A stretch of 64,000 bases of DNA from Vulcanimicrobiota bacterium (GTDB taxonomy: Bacteria; Vulcanimicrobiota; Vulcanimicrobiia; Vulcanimicrobiales; Vulcanimicrobiaceae): positions 1 through 64,000 of the forward strand of contig PMSI01000002.1 in NCBI GenBank assembly GCA_003168375.1. The letters run 5' to 3'. The first letter of the stretch is position 1, and each line of letters opens with the position of its first letter. Shown in pieces: positions 16,874 to 24,674 of the stretch. The position numbers and the translations under genes were made by a program. The notes below the pieces were generated by a model. That model made no database searches. It saw only the letters and a program-made list of their open reading frames with translations, and had not been told where the DNA came from.

Positions 16874-17233
16874 GTGAGTGAAGTACGGTCGCATCGCCGG
16901 CTCTCGGACGCGCCGATGCTCGTCGCCTATACGATCGCCGACGAGTTCGCGGAGGCACGCACCGAAACGTATGACGTCGGGCTCGGCGGACTCGCGATGC
17001 TCGCCGAGACCGAGCTTCCGATGGGGCAGGCGCTGCGGTTGGAACTGGAACTGCGGGGCGACCCGCGCCCGCCGCTCCGCCTCACCGGCGAGGTGCGCTG
17101 GTGCCGCTACGACGGCGGGCTCGCCAAGTATCGAACCGGCGTCGAATTCACCGACCGCACCCCCGAGCAAGAGTCGCAGCTCCTCGGCTACATCGAGATG
17201 ATGTACCAGCTCCGCGATTTGGGAGTGCTGTAA
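16874..17233 (+). CDS. PilZ domain protein
   Basis: 119 residues, essentially one PilZ domain. RSHRRLSDAPMLVAY supplies the Arg-rich c-di-GMP switch and TYDVGLGGLAM corresponds to the D/NxSxxG motif (Gly for Ser). GEVRWCRYDGG and TGVEFTDRTPEQE are typical barrel strands. It probably binds c-di-GMP and transmits the signal to a partner not evident here. The GTG start follows GAAAGG by about 7 nt. Divergent from uppP. Confidence 0.85.
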   Translation: MSEVRSHRRLSDAPMLVAYTIADEFAEARTETYDVGLGGLAMLAETELPMGQALRLELELRGDPRPPLRLTGEVRWCRYDGGLAKYRTGVEFTDRTPEQESQLLGYIEMMYQLRDLGVL

Positions 17234-17263
17234 AGCCCACCCGCCGAGATGACCAGGACGCAG

Positions 17264-17295
17264 AAAACGCCCCGCCCGAAGGGCCGGGGCGTTTT
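17264..17295. terminator. Bidirectional intrinsic terminator
   Basis: AAAACGCCCCG and CGGGGCGTTTT form an 11-bp perfect stem around a 10-nt loop, with A- and T-runs at its ends. It lies between the convergent PilZ and tonB genes and can stop transcription from both sides. Confidence 0.9.
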
Positions 17296-17337
17296 GCGTC
17301 CGCAGGCGTATGGCGCTCGTTCAGAGCGCCATCGCCT

Positions 17338-18099
17338 CTATTGGGAACTAAAGTCGACGCTGAAGATGTAGTCGGCGGCGATCGGCTTGCAGTCCCGGAT
17401 CTCGGTCTGGAACGTCGAGTTCCGGGCCGCGCTGAGCGCCGCGTTGTTCAGGATCGCGCTCGGCGAGCTCTGAACCCGTGTTCCGGTGACCTTGCTGTCG
17501 GCGTTCAGCGAGACGATGACCTGAACCACCCCCGCGATCCCCTGCTGCTGTGCCATCTGCGGAGTGTCCGGCTCGATCGCGCGCAGGGTGGTCGCGGCGA
17601 CGTTCGGACGCGCGCAACTGGCCGGGGTCGGCGTCGGCCTCGGCGTCGGCTGCGCCGGGGCAGGGGTCGCCGGCGGGGCGGTCGACGGTGCCGCCGTCCC
17701 TTGACCTTGCGGGATCCCCTGGGTGTTGCCGGTCGTGTACTTGTTCGCCGTCTCCTGCGGGCCGCTGTTCGACTTCGACTCCGTCTTCTGCGTGTTGATC
17801 TTGATCTTCGGCTGCTGCGGCGCGGGCGTCTGCTGCGGCGGCGGGGTCTGCTTCGGCGGTGGGGTCGGCGGCGGGGTCGGGTGCGGCGTCGGCGTCGGCG
17901 GCGGGGTCGGCGGCGGCGTGGGGACCCGCACCACCGTCACCTTCTGCGGCTGATCTTCCTCGGCGTGCGTCTTCTCGAACTTCAGGAACGGCCCGCCGAT
18001 CAGGTGCAGCACGATCGAGAGCGCAAACCCGTAGAAAAGGAAGTTCTTGGCCCGCTCGGCTGTCGGAACCGGGGGCTTCGGAGCGCGGTTGCTCGCCAT
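17338..18099 (-). CDS. tonB: TonB energy transducer
   Basis: 253 residues: one inner-membrane helix (about 22-42, FYGFALSIVLHLIGGPF), a long Pro/Thr-rich periplasmic spacer (about 58-95) and a TonB_C domain at the end (TTLRAIEPDTPQMAQQQGIAGVVQV onward, VTGTRVQSSPSAILNNAAL). It couples proton motive force from ExbB/ExbD to outer-membrane receptors. Its ATG directly abuts the exbD stop. No TonB-dependent receptor is in the window. Confidence 0.88.
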   Translation of the reverse strand: MASNRAPKPPVPTAERAKNFLFYGFALSIVLHLIGGPFLKFEKTHAEEDQPQKVTVVRVPTPPPTPPPTPTPHPTPPPTPPPKQTPPPQQTPAPQQPKIKINTQKTESKSNSGPQETANKYTTGNTQGIPQGQGTAAPSTAPPATPAPAQPTPRPTPTPASCARPNVAATTLRAIEPDTPQMAQQQGIAGVVQVIVSLNADSKVTGTRVQSSPSAILNNAALSAARNSTFQTEIRDCKPIAADYIFSVDFSSQ

Positions 18100-18528
18100 C
18101 TAGCTCCCAGATGCCCCTTCCGGCGTCCCTTCGACGTGGTTGGCCAAGCCGAAGGTCGTCAGGTTCGCCGCCTTTGCGGCGTCCATGACGCGCAAGATCG
18201 TCCCGAAGCTCGCCTTCGGGTTCGCCTTGATGATGACGGTCTTCAACCCGCTGCCCGTATTCTTGACGAGCTGCTGGAATTGAACCTTCGCCTGCATCTC
18301 GTTGACGACGTTCGAGCCGATCTGCACGTCGTTGTGCTCGTCGACCAGGACCACGATCTGCGAGGGATGGACCTTTTGTTTGTTCTTGGCGTCGGGGAGC
18401 CGAGGCTCTTTGACGACCGAGGCGAGGATGATGAAGATGATCAGGAGGACCAGCAACACGTCCGTGAAGGGCGTGATGTTGATCGTCGACATCACTTCTT
18501 CTTCGCCTTGTCCGGTGGAGACGGCCAC
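18100..18528 (-). CDS. exbD: ExbD/TolR biopolymer transport protein (copy 1)
   Basis: 142 residues. STINITPFTDVLLVLLIIFIILASVV is the conserved ExbD/TolR helix with the proton-carrying Asp in FTDVLLV, followed by a periplasmic domain (VIIKANPKASFGTILRVMDAAK). With ExbB it forms the motor that energises TonB. Adjacent to a second, differing exbD, so the two may form mixed complexes or serve different transducers. Confidence 0.92.
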   Translation of the reverse strand: MAVSTGQGEEEVMSTINITPFTDVLLVLLIIFIILASVVKEPRLPDAKNKQKVHPSQIVVLVDEHNDVQIGSNVVNEMQAKVQFQQLVKNTGSGLKTVIIKANPKASFGTILRVMDAAKAANLTTFGLANHVEGTPEGASGS

Positions 18529-18553
18529 GAAGCGGAGTTTCCTTCTCTTACTC

Positions 18554-18967
18554 TTACGAGGTGACGAAGCCGACGTCTTCCAGACCCGCGACCTTCGCGG
18601 CGTCCAGAATACGGATGATCGTGCCGTAGGGCGCCTTGACGTCCGCGGTGAGCGAGACGTGCTTGTCGCCCCTGCGCCGGCGGACGTCGCTCATATCTGC
18701 ATAGATACGGGTGGCGTCCGTGCGCTTGCCGTCGACGTAGATCGTTCCGGTTTCATTGACGAGGACTTCGATGCTGTCAGTCTTCTTCTGCTGCTGGATC
18801 GGCGTGTTGTCGTTCTTGTCCGGCAACTGTTTCTCGAAACCCGGCGGCGCCACGAGCGCCGCAAGGATCATGAAGATGATGAGGAGGACCAGCAGCACGT
18901 CCGTGAAGGGCGTGATGTTGATCTCGGACATCACCGCGTCGTCCTGCTGGGCGGAGACCATGCTCAT
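18554..18967 (-). CDS. exbD: ExbD/TolR biopolymer transport protein (copy 2)
   Basis: 137 residues with the same helix (SEINITPFTDVLLVLLIIFMILAALV) and Asp as copy 1. The periplasmic domain differs (SIEVLVNETGTIYVDGKRTDATRIYADM, DVKAPYGTIIRILDAAKVAGL). Start at the first ATG; a second ATG two codons on is equally possible. It lies between exbB and the other exbD. Confidence 0.92.
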   Translation of the reverse strand: MSMVSAQQDDAVMSEINITPFTDVLLVLLIIFMILAALVAPPGFEKQLPDKNDNTPIQQQKKTDSIEVLVNETGTIYVDGKRTDATRIYADMSDVRRRRGDKHVSLTADVKAPYGTIIRILDAAKVAGLEDVGFVTS

Positions 18968-18998
18968 GAGTCGAGCCCTTTGATCGAGAGGTTCAGGG

Positions 18999-19670
18999 TT
19001 ACTTCGCTTCCGCGGCCGGCTTGTACAGGTCGGTCGGGATCGAGGCGCCGGTGTTGTGGAAGTGGAGCATCTCGGCGAGCTGGTTGGCCGAGACGATCAT
19101 CTCCTGGTTGTACGCCTTGATCCGGGTCTTGAAGTAGTTGAAGAAAACAACCGCGGTGACGGCCACGAACAGGCCGGCCGCCGTGGTGATCAGCGCTTCG
19201 GCGACACCCGCCGAGACGACGGCCGGGGTCGAGTTCCCTTTGAGGGCGATATCTTGGAAGGTGCGCATGACGCCGAGCACCGTACCGAACAACCCGACGA
19301 ACGGTGCGATGACCGCGATGGTACCGATGACGCCGAGGTTGCGCTCGAGCGTGTTCAGGTTCTCCATCAGCGCGATCGACAGCGCGTCGGTGATGTCGGC
19401 GCGGTTCTTCTCCCCGCGCTGAAGGCCGAACGCCAGGATTTTGGGGAGCATCCCTTTGTTCTGGCGGCAGATCTTGATCGCGCCTTCGAGGTCGTCCTCG
19501 GCGATTTTCAGGCCGATCGCCTTCAGCAGGCCCTTCGAATCCGAGTGCTGACTGGCGAAGAAGAGCAGCCGTTCGATCACGATAGCGACCGCGGCGATCG
19601 ACATCACGAGGAGGATCCACATTGCGGGACCGCCCTGATCGATCATGGTGAAAAATCCGCTGAAATCCAC
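18999..19670 (-). CDS. exbB: ExbB/TolQ/MotA proton channel protein
   Basis: 223 residues. An N-terminal helix (MWILLVMSIAAVAIVIERLLFF), a cytoplasmic stretch, then GVIGTIAVIAPFVGLFGTVLGVMRTFQDIA and EALITTAAGLFVAVTAVVFFNYF form the MotA/ExbB pore signature. Five such subunits surround an ExbD dimer. GTG start. First gene of the exbB-exbD-exbD-tonB block. Confidence 0.93.
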   Translation of the reverse strand: MDFSGFFTMIDQGGPAMWILLVMSIAAVAIVIERLLFFASQHSDSKGLLKAIGLKIAEDDLEGAIKICRQNKGMLPKILAFGLQRGEKNRADITDALSIALMENLNTLERNLGVIGTIAVIAPFVGLFGTVLGVMRTFQDIALKGNSTPAVVSAGVAEALITTAAGLFVAVTAVVFFNYFKTRIKAYNQEMIVSANQLAEMLHFHNTGASIPTDLYKPAAEAK

Positions 19671-19793
19671 GAGCTCTGGTTTCGCCTCCGAGTCTTCGAG
19701 GGAGTTTGAGTCTCCGGCGCGAGCCGGGTCAGACGAAGCTAGCCGGGGACTGCCCGGCGCGGGCCTAGGTGTTGGCGCCCCCGGCGTCCATTC

Positions 19794-21134
19794 CTACTTA
19801 GGTGTGATCTTCGTGAGCGCCGCGATCGCCTTGTCGATCTCGGCGTTGAGCGACGCGTCGGATGAACCGGAGTTCGCTTTGGCCTTCTGAAGGTACGCCA
19901 TCGCGGGCTTCGTGTCGGGGTTCACGGTCTTGGGATCGATGCTGTTCGCGAGCGCGATCCCGGCAACGAGATTCGCGCGCGCGTCGTTCGGATCGAGGGC
20001 GAGCGCCTTGTCGGCTTCGGCCTTCACGCCCTTCCAATCCGGCTTGGCCGCCCCCGCGAGTATGTTCGCCGCCTGCACGTACAGCACGACGGCGCGCGAG
20101 GGGACCGACCGCGCCGCGTTCTCGAGGTCGGTCACCGCTTCCGCCCTCCGGCCCGCCTGCATCGCAGCGACGGCCTGCTGGTTATAGTACGCCGCCAGAG
20201 TGTCGTCGATGCGGGTGTTGGACGGATCGCGCGCCTTGAGTTCCTTCGCCAGCGCGACCCCCTTGTCGGCCTGACCGCCGAAGATGTAGGCGGTGGCGAG
20301 CGAGGCGTCGATCGCGTTGAGGGTCGCGTTGTCGGCGTGACCGGCGGTCGCCTGCGCCTTCGCCTTCTCCAGGTCGGCGATCGCTGCGGGGTACTTCTGC
20401 GCGTTCCCGTAGGCGGTCCCCCGGATGAACAGTGTGTTCACGTTCTGCTGGAGCGCGAGCGCCTTGTCGGAGAGCGCGATCGCGAGGTCGTTGTTCTTTG
20501 CCTTCAGCGCGTCGACCGCGGCGTCCGAGTACGCTTTGGCGGCGACCACCTTGAAACGATCCGGGATCGTTCCGGCGGCATCGAACGCGGCGGCGGCGCC
20601 TTGCGCGTCGGGAGGGTCGAGGTATTCGTCGGCGACACCGAGCAGCGCTTGCGCGTTTTTGTCACCGGGGTGCGAAGCCAAGTACGATTGGAGCGCGGTC
20701 TTCGCCTCGGGGAACTTGTTCGCGCGGATCAGCGCGTTCGCTTGGACGACTTGACTCACGCTGCTGCCGGTATCGTTCACGACCGACGAGCCCAAGAATT
20801 TCAGGTCCATCGTGTAGAAGGCGTCGACCGCTTTGCCGTCGCGCATCCCGGGTTTGTAGGTCGAGTTCTTCGCGATCTCGAGCGCCGCGGCATCGTCTCC
20901 GTGGTTGGTCGACTTCTGGATCTTCACCGCGCCGATCGCGCCGTTTTTGTGCACGAACACCTGTACGGTGACGGCGCCTTTCCCGGCGACCGGTACGCTC
21001 GGATCCGCCTGTTTGACGACCTTCGGCGGCGTGTAGTACACGCTGGTCTGGGCGGGCGCCGCGAGCTGGAGCGACGCGGCGGCGAGCGCCGTGAACGCGA
21101 GCGCGGCGAGCGGGCGAAGGGTTCTCTCGACCAT
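19794..21134 (-). CDS. Secreted protein with TonB_C-like domain followed by TPR repeats
   Basis: 446 residues. A signal peptide (about 1-29) is followed by a TonB C-terminal-like domain (about 33-115: VTVQVFVHKNGAIGAVKIQKSTNHGDDAAALEIAKNSTYKPG). Several TPR helices fill the rest (AKTALQSYLASHPGDKNAQALLGVADEYLDP, then KYPAAIADLEKAKAQA). It has no anchor helix or Pro-rich spacer, so it is not a conventional TonB. A periplasmic scaffold or assembly role is inferred from the repeats and from its position upstream of exbB. Confidence 0.75.
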   Translation of the reverse strand: MVERTLRPLAALAFTALAAASLQLAAPAQTSVYYTPPKVVKQADPSVPVAGKGAVTVQVFVHKNGAIGAVKIQKSTNHGDDAAALEIAKNSTYKPGMRDGKAVDAFYTMDLKFLGSSVVNDTGSSVSQVVQANALIRANKFPEAKTALQSYLASHPGDKNAQALLGVADEYLDPPDAQGAAAAFDAAGTIPDRFKVVAAKAYSDAAVDALKAKNNDLAIALSDKALALQQNVNTLFIRGTAYGNAQKYPAAIADLEKAKAQATAGHADNATLNAIDASLATAYIFGGQADKGVALAKELKARDPSNTRIDDTLAAYYNQQAVAAMQAGRRAEAVTDLENAARSVPSRAVVLYVQAANILAGAAKPDWKGVKAEADKALALDPNDARANLVAGIALANSIDPKTVNPDTKPAMAYLQKAKANSGSSDASLNAEIDKAIAALTKITPK

Positions 21135-21341: not shown

Positions 21342-21707
21342 TTAGCGACCGGTCAGGTCGGGCCGGAGAACGGTCGCGCCTTCCAAATAGACGTGCTGGA
21401 TGCGGTCCTGCGGCTGGTCGGTGTTGACGTGCACCAGGACCCGAATACAGCGCTCCAGCCTTCCGGGTACCCCGATTTCCGTGAAGTTCAACAGCGGCAC
21501 AAGCGTCCACCCCATGCGGCGAGCGGCCGCCGCCGGGAACTCCGAGACGAGGTCCGGAGTGACGGTAAAGAGCGCCGACGCGACGTCCTCCGGGACGAAG
21601 CCGTTGCGCTGCACGATCTCCCGGAGCAGTTGCTCGGTCGCATCCAGGATCAAGCCCGGCTCGTCGCCCGCCACCGTCGTGGCGCCGCGAATGCCGCGCA
21701 GGATCAC
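21342..21707 (-). CDS. aroH: Chorismate mutase, AroH type
   Basis: 121 residues of the trimeric Bacillus-type chorismate mutase, converting chorismate to prephenate. RGIRGATTV (Arg near residue 7), [17 protein letters not shown] (the key Arg lies in RCIRV) and [18 protein letters not shown] with the active-site Tyr match closely. The Cys that precedes the FxE segment in B. subtilis is Asn here. GTG is coupled to the rluB stop by GTGA, an unusual gene pairing. Confidence 0.92.
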
Positions 21708-22444
21708 GGCGCCACCGCCTCGCGCGAATCGCTGACCACCCGGTGGAGGGCGGCGACTTCGCGCGGCGTCGCCGGCCGGACCGCGCCGGGGGCCAGCTCG
21801 CCCAGTGAGATCGGACCGAAGCGCAGCCTGGTGAGCGCGATGACCGGATGCTCGACCACCTCGAACATACGGCGGACCTGGCGGTTGCGGCCCTCGTGGA
21901 TCGTGATGTCGACCAGCGAGACGTCGCGGCGAACGGCGACGACGCGCACCAGCGCCGGCGCCGCGCGGCCTTCCTCGAGCCGCACGCCGCGCAGGATCTT
22001 CTCGACCGCGGTCGGCTCGAGCCGCCCGCGCAGGGTTGCCCGATAGGTCTTCTCGACGCCGAACCGCGGGTGGGTCAGCACGTTGGCCGCCTCACCGTCG
22101 TCGGTCAGCAGCAGCACGCCGCTCGTATCGTAGTCGAGCCGCCCGACGGGGACGACGCGGGCGGTGACGCCGGCCGCCCGCACCAGATCGCTGACGGTAC
22201 GACGCCCCTCCGGATCGCGCATCGTCGTCATCACGCCGGCCGGTTTGTGCATCACGACGTAGGTGCGCGTTTCGGCCGGCCGCACGACCCGCCCGTCGAC
22301 CTCGACGCGCGCGCCGTCGTCGACGCTCGTGCCGAGCTCGCGCACGACCCGCCCCGCGACACGAACCCGGCCCGCGACGATCAGCTCCTCGGCGCGGCGG
22401 CGCGACGCAACGCCGGCCGCCGCGAGATATTTCTGCAGCCGCAG
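21704..22444 (-). CDS. rluB: RluB/RsuA-family pseudouridine synthase, apparent CTG start
   Basis: About 246 residues. The S4 RNA-binding domain starts [22 protein letters not shown]. The synthase domain has the active-site Asp in [18 protein letters not shown] and the [11 protein letters not shown] motif. It modifies a uridine in 23S or 16S rRNA. The first in-frame ATG/GTG/TTG (GTG, 22345) lies inside the S4 domain, so the true start is upstream. CTG at 22442-22444, with TAGGA 9 nt before it and 11 nt after the Rho stop, puts the start exactly where family members begin. Confidence 0.85.
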
Positions 22445-22455
22445 CGCCGCGGGTC

Positions 22456-23856
22456 CTAGACCTTCTTCAGGTCGAGCGCGGTCACGAACTCGTCGTTCTT
22501 CTGCGTCCGCGCGAGCGCGGCGTAGATCCGCTCCGACGCCTCGACGGTCGTGACCCCCGAGAGCGCACGCCGTAGGTCGGTCACCTTGTGCAGCGCGATC
22601 TCGCTGAGCAGCTGCTCTTCGTACCAGTTGCTGCTGCGCATCAGATCGACCGGCGGGTAGGCCCGGATCTCGGCGAGCTCGCGCGCCAGGATGAGCTCGG
22701 CGTTCGCGGCCGGCGAGAACTCGTCGATCAACAGCGCGTCGAACGCCGACGTCCCGGCGCTCAGCGTCGCGAGCACGGTGAGCGAACCGCCGCCCTCGAC
22801 CGCACGCGCGGCGCCGAACAGCCGCTTCGGACGCTGCAGCGTCGCACCGTCGATCTGCGACGCGTTCCCTTTATGGTGCGAGATCGCGGCGTAGGCGCGG
22901 ACCAGCCGCGTGAGCGAGGAGACGAGGACGACCGCGTCGCGGCCGAGCTCCGCCAGGCGCTTCGCGCGCTCGAACACCAGCTCGGCGGTCGTCACGTGGT
23001 TGTCGGGATGCTCCTCGAACGTCGTCGCCACGACTTCGACGTCGAGCTCGCGTTGCAGGTGCGTCACGGCTTCGGGACGCTCGTCGACGAGCAGCACGAT
23101 CACGTGCGCTTCGCGATCGTTCGCTTCGATCGCCCGTGCGATGCGGACGAGGAGCGCGGCGTCGTCCGCACGCGCCGGCGCGAGCAGCAGCGCGCGCTGC
23201 CCCTTGCCCAACGGCGCGAAGAGGTCGATCGCCCGCGTCGCGAGATCGCCGCGGGTCTCGAGCGTGAAGCGCTGCGTCGGCGGTTCCGCCGTGAGCTCTT
23301 CGAAGATGCGGCGGTTCGCGATCGCTTCCGGCGCGTAGCCGTTGATGGTCTCGACCTTGACGATCCCGTAGTACTTCTCGTTCTCTTTCGGCCTGCGCAC
23401 CTGACCGGCGACGAGATCGCCCCGCCGCAGCTCGAAGCGCCGGATCTGCGACTGCGAGATGTAGATATCGTCGGTTCCGACCAGGTACCCGTCGCGCCGG
23501 AGGAAGCCGTAGCCCTCCGGCAGGATGTCGAGGACGCCGTTCGCCTTTTCGAGGCCGCTGCGCTGGGCCTGGACGTCGACGATCTGCGCGACCAGGTCGT
23601 CCTTCTTGATCTTGGTCGGGTTCTCGATCTCGAACGTCTTCGCGAGCTCGTTGAGCTCGGCTTTGCTCATCTCGGCGAGTTGCTCGCCGGAGAGCAGCGG
23701 CGGTCCGACCGCCTGGGGGAACTCGGGCTGGGTGAAGACGTCGTGCTGCGCTTGCGGCGCGCCTTCGTTGAAGCGTTGGCGGTTGCGCCGCGAGCGGCGG
23801 CGACGGCCCCCACCTTCCGGACGACCGTTGTTGTTGGGTCGATTGTCGAACTGCAG
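22456..23856 (-). CDS. Rho-like protein with ablated ATPase site
   Basis: 466 residues from an apparent CTG start (404 from ATG 23670; numbers below use the ATG). An Arg/Asn/Gly-rich leader is followed by a Rho_N helix bundle (1-33), an intact RNA-binding OB fold (46-117, DILPEGYGFLRRDGYLVGTDDIYISQSQ), then the RecA-like core. The Walker A, normally APPKAGKT, reads APARADDA (164-171). The Walker B Asp is Ser (VVLVSS). The arginine-finger Arg in RSGTRKEELL is Trp (RSSNWYEEQLL). DERPEAVT and LQRPKRLFGAARAVEGGGSLTVLAT remain. RNA binding is expected; ATP-driven translocation is not. Confidence 0.88.
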   Translation of the reverse strand: MQFDNRPNNNGRPEGGGRRRRSRRNRQRFNEGAPQAQHDVFTQPEFPQAVGPPLLSGEQLAEMSKAELNELAKTFEIENPTKIKKDDLVAQIVDVQAQRSGLEKANGVLDILPEGYGFLRRDGYLVGTDDIYISQSQIRRFELRRGDLVAGQVRRPKENEKYYGIVKVETINGYAPEAIANRRIFEELTAEPPTQRFTLETRGDLATRAIDLFAPLGKGQRALLLAPARADDAALLVRIARAIEANDREAHVIVLLVDERPEAVTHLQRELDVEVVATTFEEHPDNHVTTAELVFERAKRLAELGRDAVVLVSSLTRLVRAYAAISHHKGNASQIDGATLQRPKRLFGAARAVEGGGSLTVLATLSAGTSAFDALLIDEFSPAANAELILARELAEIRAYPPVDLMRSSNWYEEQLLSEIALHKVTDLRRALSGVTTVEASERIYAALARTQKNDEFVTALDLKKV

Positions 23857-24005: not shown

Positions 24006-24674
24006 TCACGGGGACAAGGCGCGTGGTCCGCTCACGCTTCGATTCCCCGCGGCGTAGAAGCGCAGCGGCTCGTGGGCGGCTTTCGTGATCCCGATGCGCG
24101 TGCTGACACCGACCGGCAGCTCGATCCCGTCGGCGGCGAGCCACAGCCCCGGATCGGCCGTGAGGTCTACGCCGTCGAACGCGGGACCGATCGCGAACGC
24201 TCGGCAGAGGTTCCCGGGGCCCCGGGCGAGGTCGCGATCCTTCACCCCCGGCCGGCCGCGCAGGGCGCGCATCGTCTCGATCCCAGCTACCGGCTCGCAG
24301 GCGCGCACCAGCGCGGCGGCACCGACCCCGTCCGCTTCGGCGGTGACGTTCAGGCACCAGTTGGCGCCGTAGATGAAGTACACGTAGGCGTGGAGCGGCG
24401 GACCGAACATCGCCCGGTTGCGCGCCGTCATCCCGCGGAACGCGTGCGAGGCGGGATCGGCCGGGAAGTACGCTTCGGTCTCGACGATCCGCCCGACCAG
24501 CAGCTCGCCGTCGAGCGCGCGAACCAGCAGCTTCCCGATCAGTGCCCGCGAGAGCGCGACGGTCTCGTGCGGGAGATCATCGCGGCCCAGCCGGCCGCCG
24601 GCCCGGTCATGCGGCGGCCGAGGTGCGGAGCGCGACTTCCGCGCGAGCGCGGGTTTCGAGGTCGTGGGTTTCAA
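24006..24674 (-). CDS. mpg: 3-methyladenine DNA glycosylase (Mpg/AAG family)
   Basis: Up to 222 residues. ALIGKLLVRALDGELLVGRIVETEAYFPADPASHAFRG carries the catalytic Glu. RNRAMFGPPLHAYVYFIYGANWCLNVTAE and ARGPGNLCRAFAI complete the AAG signature. It excises alkylated purines. The ATG chosen overlaps the upstream gene by 68 nt and adds about 28 Arg/Pro-rich residues of doubtful reality. An in-frame CTG at 24588-24590 would start just before DDLPHETVALSRALIGK, where the family usually begins. It follows the RNase H-like gene, and both lie downstream of the SOS box. Confidence 0.9.
   Translation of the reverse strand: MKPTTSKPALARKSRSAPRPPHDRAGGRLGRDDLPHETVALSRALIGKLLVRALDGELLVGRIVETEAYFPADPASHAFRGMTARNRAMFGPPLHAYVYFIYGANWCLNVTAEADGVGAAALVRACEPVAGIETMRALRGRPGVKDRDLARGPGNLCRAFAIGPAFDGVDLTADPGLWLAADGIELPVGVSTRIGITKAAHEPLRFYAAGNRSVSGPRALSP

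Follow-up and report, generated by a model that had tools for sequence, protein, structure and literature searches.

The window analysed here, a stretch of 64,000 nucleotides from a Vulcanimicrobiota bacterium, carries in its segment 22456–23856 a single rho-type open reading frame, which is located on the minus strand and ends with the stop codon TAG at 22456–22458. The product is a Rho orthologue with a putatively dead ATPase (hereafter dead Rho), of 466 aa when counted from a conserved CTG codon at the upper end (23856) and of 404 aa when begun at the first ATG, GTG or TTG codon (the ATG at 23670). Upstream of the CTG is a Shine-Dalgarno-like stretch, GAGGGAG, and because every dead Rho and several canonical Rho of the family have both at the corresponding position, 23856 is probably the true start of rho, in line with the upper coordinate of the preliminary description. 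Across the rho loci of relatives, the apparent conserved CTG start (23854–23856 in the window) is accompanied by an upstream GA-rich Shine-Dalgarno-like stretch, and ATC takes its place in one genome. It would be unusual for a global regulator to have a conserved start other than AUG.

The gene is flanked downstream by a gene for an RsuA/RluB-type pseudouridine synthase (21704–22345, minus strand), a neighbour of rho family-wide, and upstream by a gene for a 3-methyladenine-DNA-glycosylase-like protein (24006–24674, minus strand), which adjoins the RsuA-type gene in most rho-less relatives; both names come from reading of the sequence. A cluster of ExbB/ExbD/TonB-like and TPR genes, located downstream of rho (17000–21134), is also conserved family-wide.

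Three domains are joined in one chain, Rho_N, Rho_RNA_bind and an ATP-synt_ab-type RecA core (Pfam). The helical Rho_N domain is encoded at 23566–23697 and the OB-fold primary RNA-binding domain at 23338–23538 (both minus strand). The N-terminal extension includes an Arg-rich patch, RRRRSRRNRQRF (23770–23805, minus strand), which both the canonical and the dead Rho of the family conserve and which is predicted to be disordered. AF2 models dead Rho with confidence as a Rho fold (mean pLDDT 82.7), with T. maritima Rho (3l0o, TM 0.85) as its best PDB match, and a model from the single sequence alone was poor. The Rho fold is thus predicted to be retained; the model says nothing on assembly or activity. 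In profile scoring, dead Rho reached 433 bits with TIGR00767, below the functional-equivalog cut-off of 509, and 434 bits with NF006886, above the cut-off of 315. The NCBI model NF006886 takes in dead Rho over 22459–23856, so that it is probably labelled functional Rho in automatic annotation.

The preliminary description had listed Walker A, the Walker B Asp and the arginine finger as lost, and all three losses were confirmed (residue numbering follows E. coli Rho; all coordinates are on the minus strand). Walker A (23155–23187) reads LLAPARADDAA for IVxPPKAGKTT, with D-D-A in place of G183-K184-T185; the congeners have D/N, D/E and A/S at these positions, Lys184 being Asp or Glu across the genus. 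Walker B (22915–22932) reads VVLVSS for VILLDS, and Asp265 is replaced by Ser or Gly in the genus (Ser in the window). The arginine-finger segment (22612–22638) reads RSSNWYEEQ for RSGTRHEEL, and the position of Arg366, W here, is occupied by F, M, S, V or W across the genus. Beyond what had been seen before, the Q-loop of the secondary RNA site (22849–22881, residues 278–290) is rewritten and shortened, with SHHKGN--ASQID for IPxSGRTLSGGLD, and the R-loop (22735–22761, loop 322–327) is lost, with SAGTSAFDA for IETGSKMDD and K326 gone, indicating the loss of the secondary, RNA-pulling site. Since K184, D265, R366 and the Q- and R-loops have established roles in ATP hydrolysis and RNA translocation (PMC8828861), both activities should be impossible for dead Rho. 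The catalytic residues of Rho have been described as highly conserved among divergent Rho factors (PMC8828861), and GKT is kept in 76 of the 76 Rho from other phyla in our sequence search.

A few residues of the motor are retained, also beyond the earlier observations. The block noted before as the conserved DERPEAVT (DERPEAV at 23065–23085, minus strand) indeed holds the catalytic Glu211 and Arg212 (the Arg valve), and these two, together with Arg353, are invariant in the genus. The OB fold is near canonical, as had been stated: 33 of 35 family-invariant residues are kept, and the nine primary-site contact residues examined (58, 62, 64, 66, 78, 80, 102, 108 and 110 of E. coli Rho) are all (9/9) identical to those of canonical relatives.

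The losses are common to eight full-length orthologues, the one in the window and seven from congeners, the latter 80–88% identical to it; a ninth, partial orthologue in the genus has the Walker B and finger losses. The conservation of the same losses is therefore found in every informative congener, and no intact P-loop was identified inside the genus. The genus consists of soil bacteria, among them the cultured Vulcanimicrobium alpinum (alpinus in the publication), the strain WC8-2 of which is the first cultured Eremiobacterota (PMC9758169). The same losses are present in a gap-free, single-contig congener genome of 3,508,363 bp that matches V. alpinum WC8-2, an isolate genome from hybrid assembly of long and short reads. 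The four close matches that bear names in GTDB genomes are labelled ‘Candidatus Eremiobacterota’.

The earlier proposal that dead Rho is a paralogue, with a canonical rho to be sought in the full genome, was not borne out. No second rho was identified in the genome of the window or in any of the congeners, the closed genome among them. Four other Rho-profile matches in the genome of the window score weakly and cover the RecA region alone, as other ATPases would. The dead rho occupies the ancestral rho locus of the family, with gene order conserved. Being the only rho in the genome and located at this locus, the gene is a true rho orthologue and not a paralogue.

A total of 99 species from 38 genera of the family were sampled. 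Canonical Rho is near universal elsewhere in the phylum (genomes of at least 85% completeness), and most relatives outside the genus carry it. The loss of the motor is therefore dated by canonical Rho in most outside relatives and the losses throughout the genus. In the rpoB tree, which omits two genomes without usable rpoB (G024 and G032) and places three others (G025, G102 and G121) by partial rpoB only, a half of the family with only canonical Rho is separated from the other half, clade B (bootstrap 88; 98 without the first branch of the clade). Just one genus of clade B, g53 (G120), has catalytic residues intact at the rho locus: its Rho carries GKT, D265 and R366, evolves faster than canonical Rho and possibly represents a transitional state. 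The loci L073 and L285 of this genus hold a fast Rho with all catalytic residues intact that is sister to two dead genera. The second dead genus, g19, has K184A, E211G, changed loops and a shortened C-terminus, and keeps D265 and R366. In the Rho tree, g53, g19 and the genus of the window are grouped, and inside this group g19 is joined with the genus of the window (support 0.998 each). Because the P-loop loss is shared by these two and the further losses differ, the residues suggest that the P-loop was lost first, before other parts of the motor.

No rho was found at the locus in 14 genomes of 12 genera. In 12 of these 14 the glycosylase-like and RsuA-like genes are directly adjacent; of the exceptions, G031 has no glycosylase gene either, and G102 shows a rearrangement. 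A further candidate for a rho-less genome, G004, was rejected as its contig ends inside the neighbouring gene. In G023, a Rho-like fragment with an OB fold and GKT (contig C39, L047:3-1340) was not accepted as a true rho; it probably lies on a foreign contig, the G+C content of which is 0.69 vs about 0.64 for the genome, and it is about 35% identical, about equally distant, to all Rho compared. In another relative (G104:C26:79999-81054), an open reading frame of 24,906 aa around rho probably reflects a stretch of N or an artefact of scaffolding.

The distance of Rho to the outgroup is 0.22–0.46 for the family's canonical genera, 0.60 for g53 and 0.89–1.02 for the dead genera, the last being 2–4 times that of canonical family Rho with no matching acceleration of rpoB. 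The constraint was examined by dN/dS (Nei-Gojobori), used as a descriptive measure. For NTD, OB, RecA and the P-loop stretch, the values are 0.057, 0.036, 0.015 and 0 in the canonical genus g25; 0.107, 0.134, 0.219 and 0.415 in the genus of the window; and 0, 0.010, 0.150 and 0.180 in g19 (two species). The order of constraint is inverted: RecA is the slowest part in canonical relatives, while NTD and OB are the better kept parts in the genus of the window, where the dN/dS of RecA is about 15 times that in g25. Among the residues invariant in canonical relatives, the genus keeps 12 of 14 in the NTD and 83 of 197 in RecA, as compared with the OB count given above. RecA stays under purifying selection (about 0.22) and 41 of its positions are fixed to a new state, and the core is for this reason neither decaying freely nor a passive remnant, and may have a role beyond RNA binding. 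Silent divergence among the eight full-length orthologues is about 0.5, yet no stop codon was found.

Selection keeps the part of the protein that in E. coli Rho recognises pyrimidine-rich RNA and touches RNA polymerase (RNAP), and on this ground the motorless orthologue is proposed, with fair confidence, to be retained in the two dead genera as an ATP-independent RNA-binding protein. From its residues, dead Rho is inferred to be a pseudoenzyme with no ATPase activity, with RNA binding and with a cellular role. The part of the earlier alternative that it binds RNA thus remains likely, the primary-site contacts being invariant, though this conservation is not proof since the same residues also serve folding. 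In the course of events envisaged, selection on the Rho motor would have been released in clade B, and the P-loop lysine would have been lost on the stem of g19 and the genus of the window. The latter would then have lost the Walker B Asp, the arginine finger and the Q- and R-loops, and g19 the catalytic Glu, residues of both loops and the C-terminus; elsewhere in clade B, rho would have been deleted. The remaining protein would still have the Rho fold, without hydrolysing ATP or pulling RNA through the ring, and would bind pyrimidine-rich single-stranded RNA through the intact NTD/OB primary site, and perhaps also through the Arg-rich extension; nascent or untranslated RNA would be the most likely target. 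Counting against a full abandonment of the motor, Glu211, Arg212 and Arg353 are kept without being required by an abandoned site. Sister genera, moreover, do without the gene, which indicates that whatever dead Rho does is dispensable in related cells.

As a special case of ATP-independent RNA binding, dead Rho could be a non-motor transcription factor that acts on RNAP together with NusA, NusG and RNA, modulating pausing, termination or antitermination without ATP. The best kept part, the NTD, is the carrier of RNAP-contacting residues in E. coli Rho (PMC8828861). NusA was found in 10 of 11 genomes and NusG in all those tested but two, which are incomplete assemblies, and the ISIFGRETPVEL loop of NusG, which binds Rho and S10, is unchanged everywhere; the loop says little, however, since S10 also binds it and it is equally conserved in rho-less genera. 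This narrower role is regarded as possible but doubtful. Equally tentative is the idea that dead Rho is neofunctionalised, an ATP-independent factor on RNAP or nascent RNA that exerts motor-free control of transcripts in place of motor-driven Rho; if so, the relatives would show its steps, namely canonical, accelerated but catalytically intact, dead and deleted.

It is unlikely that the gene is a functionless relic on its way to loss, with the genus as an intermediate between the canonical half and the rho-less genera. Deletion in the sister genera and the approximately 15-fold relaxation of the RecA core agree with a relic, but the absence of stops at such silent divergence, a dN/dS well below 1 in every domain, the keeping of 45 of the 49 family-invariant residues of NTD and OB, and the same domain-specific retention in a second genus (NTD 0 and OB 0.01 in g19) do not. 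Considerably less probable is an RNA-dependent ATPase or nucleotide-binding ring with a non-canonical P-loop, in which Glu211, Arg212 and Arg353 do part of the work. The invariance of these three and the purifying selection on RecA could be so explained; against it stand the acidic replacement of the P-loop lysine in the fastest part of the protein, the absence of the Walker B Asp, the arginine finger and both translocation loops, and the loss of Glu211 instead in g19. That dead Rho poisons canonical Rho hexamers as a dominant-negative paralogue, as suggested earlier, is hardly credible: its predicted fold is close enough to Rho to make co-assembly possible, but with no second rho in these genomes and the gene at the ancestral locus there is no active Rho to poison. 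An assembly or sequencing artefact, which had been argued against already, is the least probable of all, given the same losses in eight full-length orthologues and in the hybrid-read isolate genome, even though most of the genomes are metagenome-assembled.

Taken together, the ATP-independent RNA-binding role is best read along with an abandonment of Rho-motor termination in the clade B half of the family, and this lineage seems to manage without the classic motor of Rho-dependent termination. The earlier alternative of another route of termination is in part favoured by the missing motor and the deletion of rho in 12 genera; on the other side, canonical hairpin-plus-U terminators are not commoner in these genomes. 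In a small sample of about 64–100 kb per genome from eight canonical and nine dead or rho-less genomes, with genes called by a simple script, gene ends with hairpin-plus-T were near the shuffled background in both groups, with no compensation by intrinsic terminators (10.6% vs 5.7%, p 0.18). Tail-less hairpins and convergent gene pairs also did not differ between the groups, and no replacement terminator was found at the sampled gene ends. At these sampled loci (L290–L369), hairpin-plus-T terminators are thus near the shuffled background in canonical, dead and rho-less genomes alike, and termination may be unusual in the whole family. A relaxed purine bias is known for rho-less Bacilli (PMC13323073); here the purine content was not different (0.498 vs 0.492, p 0.14). 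The GC skew of sense strands was +0.002 vs -0.021 (uncorrected p 0.016), a single phylogenetic contrast between groups of differing base composition; the slight excess of C relative to G on clade B sense strands, which is the sign that a relaxed avoidance of Rho would give (PMC13323073), is no more than suggestive.

Dead Rho shares with known Rho (TIGR00767 and NF006886; E. coli, T. maritima 3l0o, M. tuberculosis 7oqh) the domain order, predicted fold, Glu211, family rho locus and all nine primary-site contacts, but differs in the absence of the Walker A lysine, Walker B Asp, arginine finger, Q-loop and R-loop, in the inverted pattern of constraint and in its score below the TIGR00767 cut-off. 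It is Rho by descent, but its residues place it outside the functional Rho ATPases, whose defining catalytic features are absent. M. tuberculosis Rho resembles it in a reduced motor, with weak ATPase and helicase activity and an altered R-loop (K326 to T) (PMC8828861). The short form Rho2 (NF041509) is likewise a divergent Rho recognised by NCBI; dead Rho, however, scores 328 bits against its cut-off of 628, and is the only copy, whereas Rho2 is modelled as a paralogue. Rho-less cyanobacteria and several Bacilli also live without a Rho motor (PMC13289151, PMC13323073), but these have lost the gene, while here two genera keep dead Rho beside rho-less sister genera, so that intermediate states of Rho loss are preserved. 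S. elongatus lacks Rho, and the majority of its transcript ends are something other than canonical terminators (PMC13289151); similarly, the family has no excess of canonical intrinsic terminators at sampled gene ends. No published case of an ATPase-dead sole Rho was found; prior notice is possible in the surveys of Moreira 2024 and D’Heygere 2013.

Among bacterial regulators, Rho is one of the most widely distributed. A Rho that is the sole copy, is ATPase-dead throughout a genus and is under selection would represent a separation in nature of RNA recognition from motor action. A ‘rho-positive’ call by profile match can be wrong about function, as NF006886 accepts dead Rho. Successive stages in the loss of Rho seem to survive in the family, and with V. 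alpinum in culture and its genome closed, the role of the RNA-binding half of Rho and termination without the motor are directly testable.
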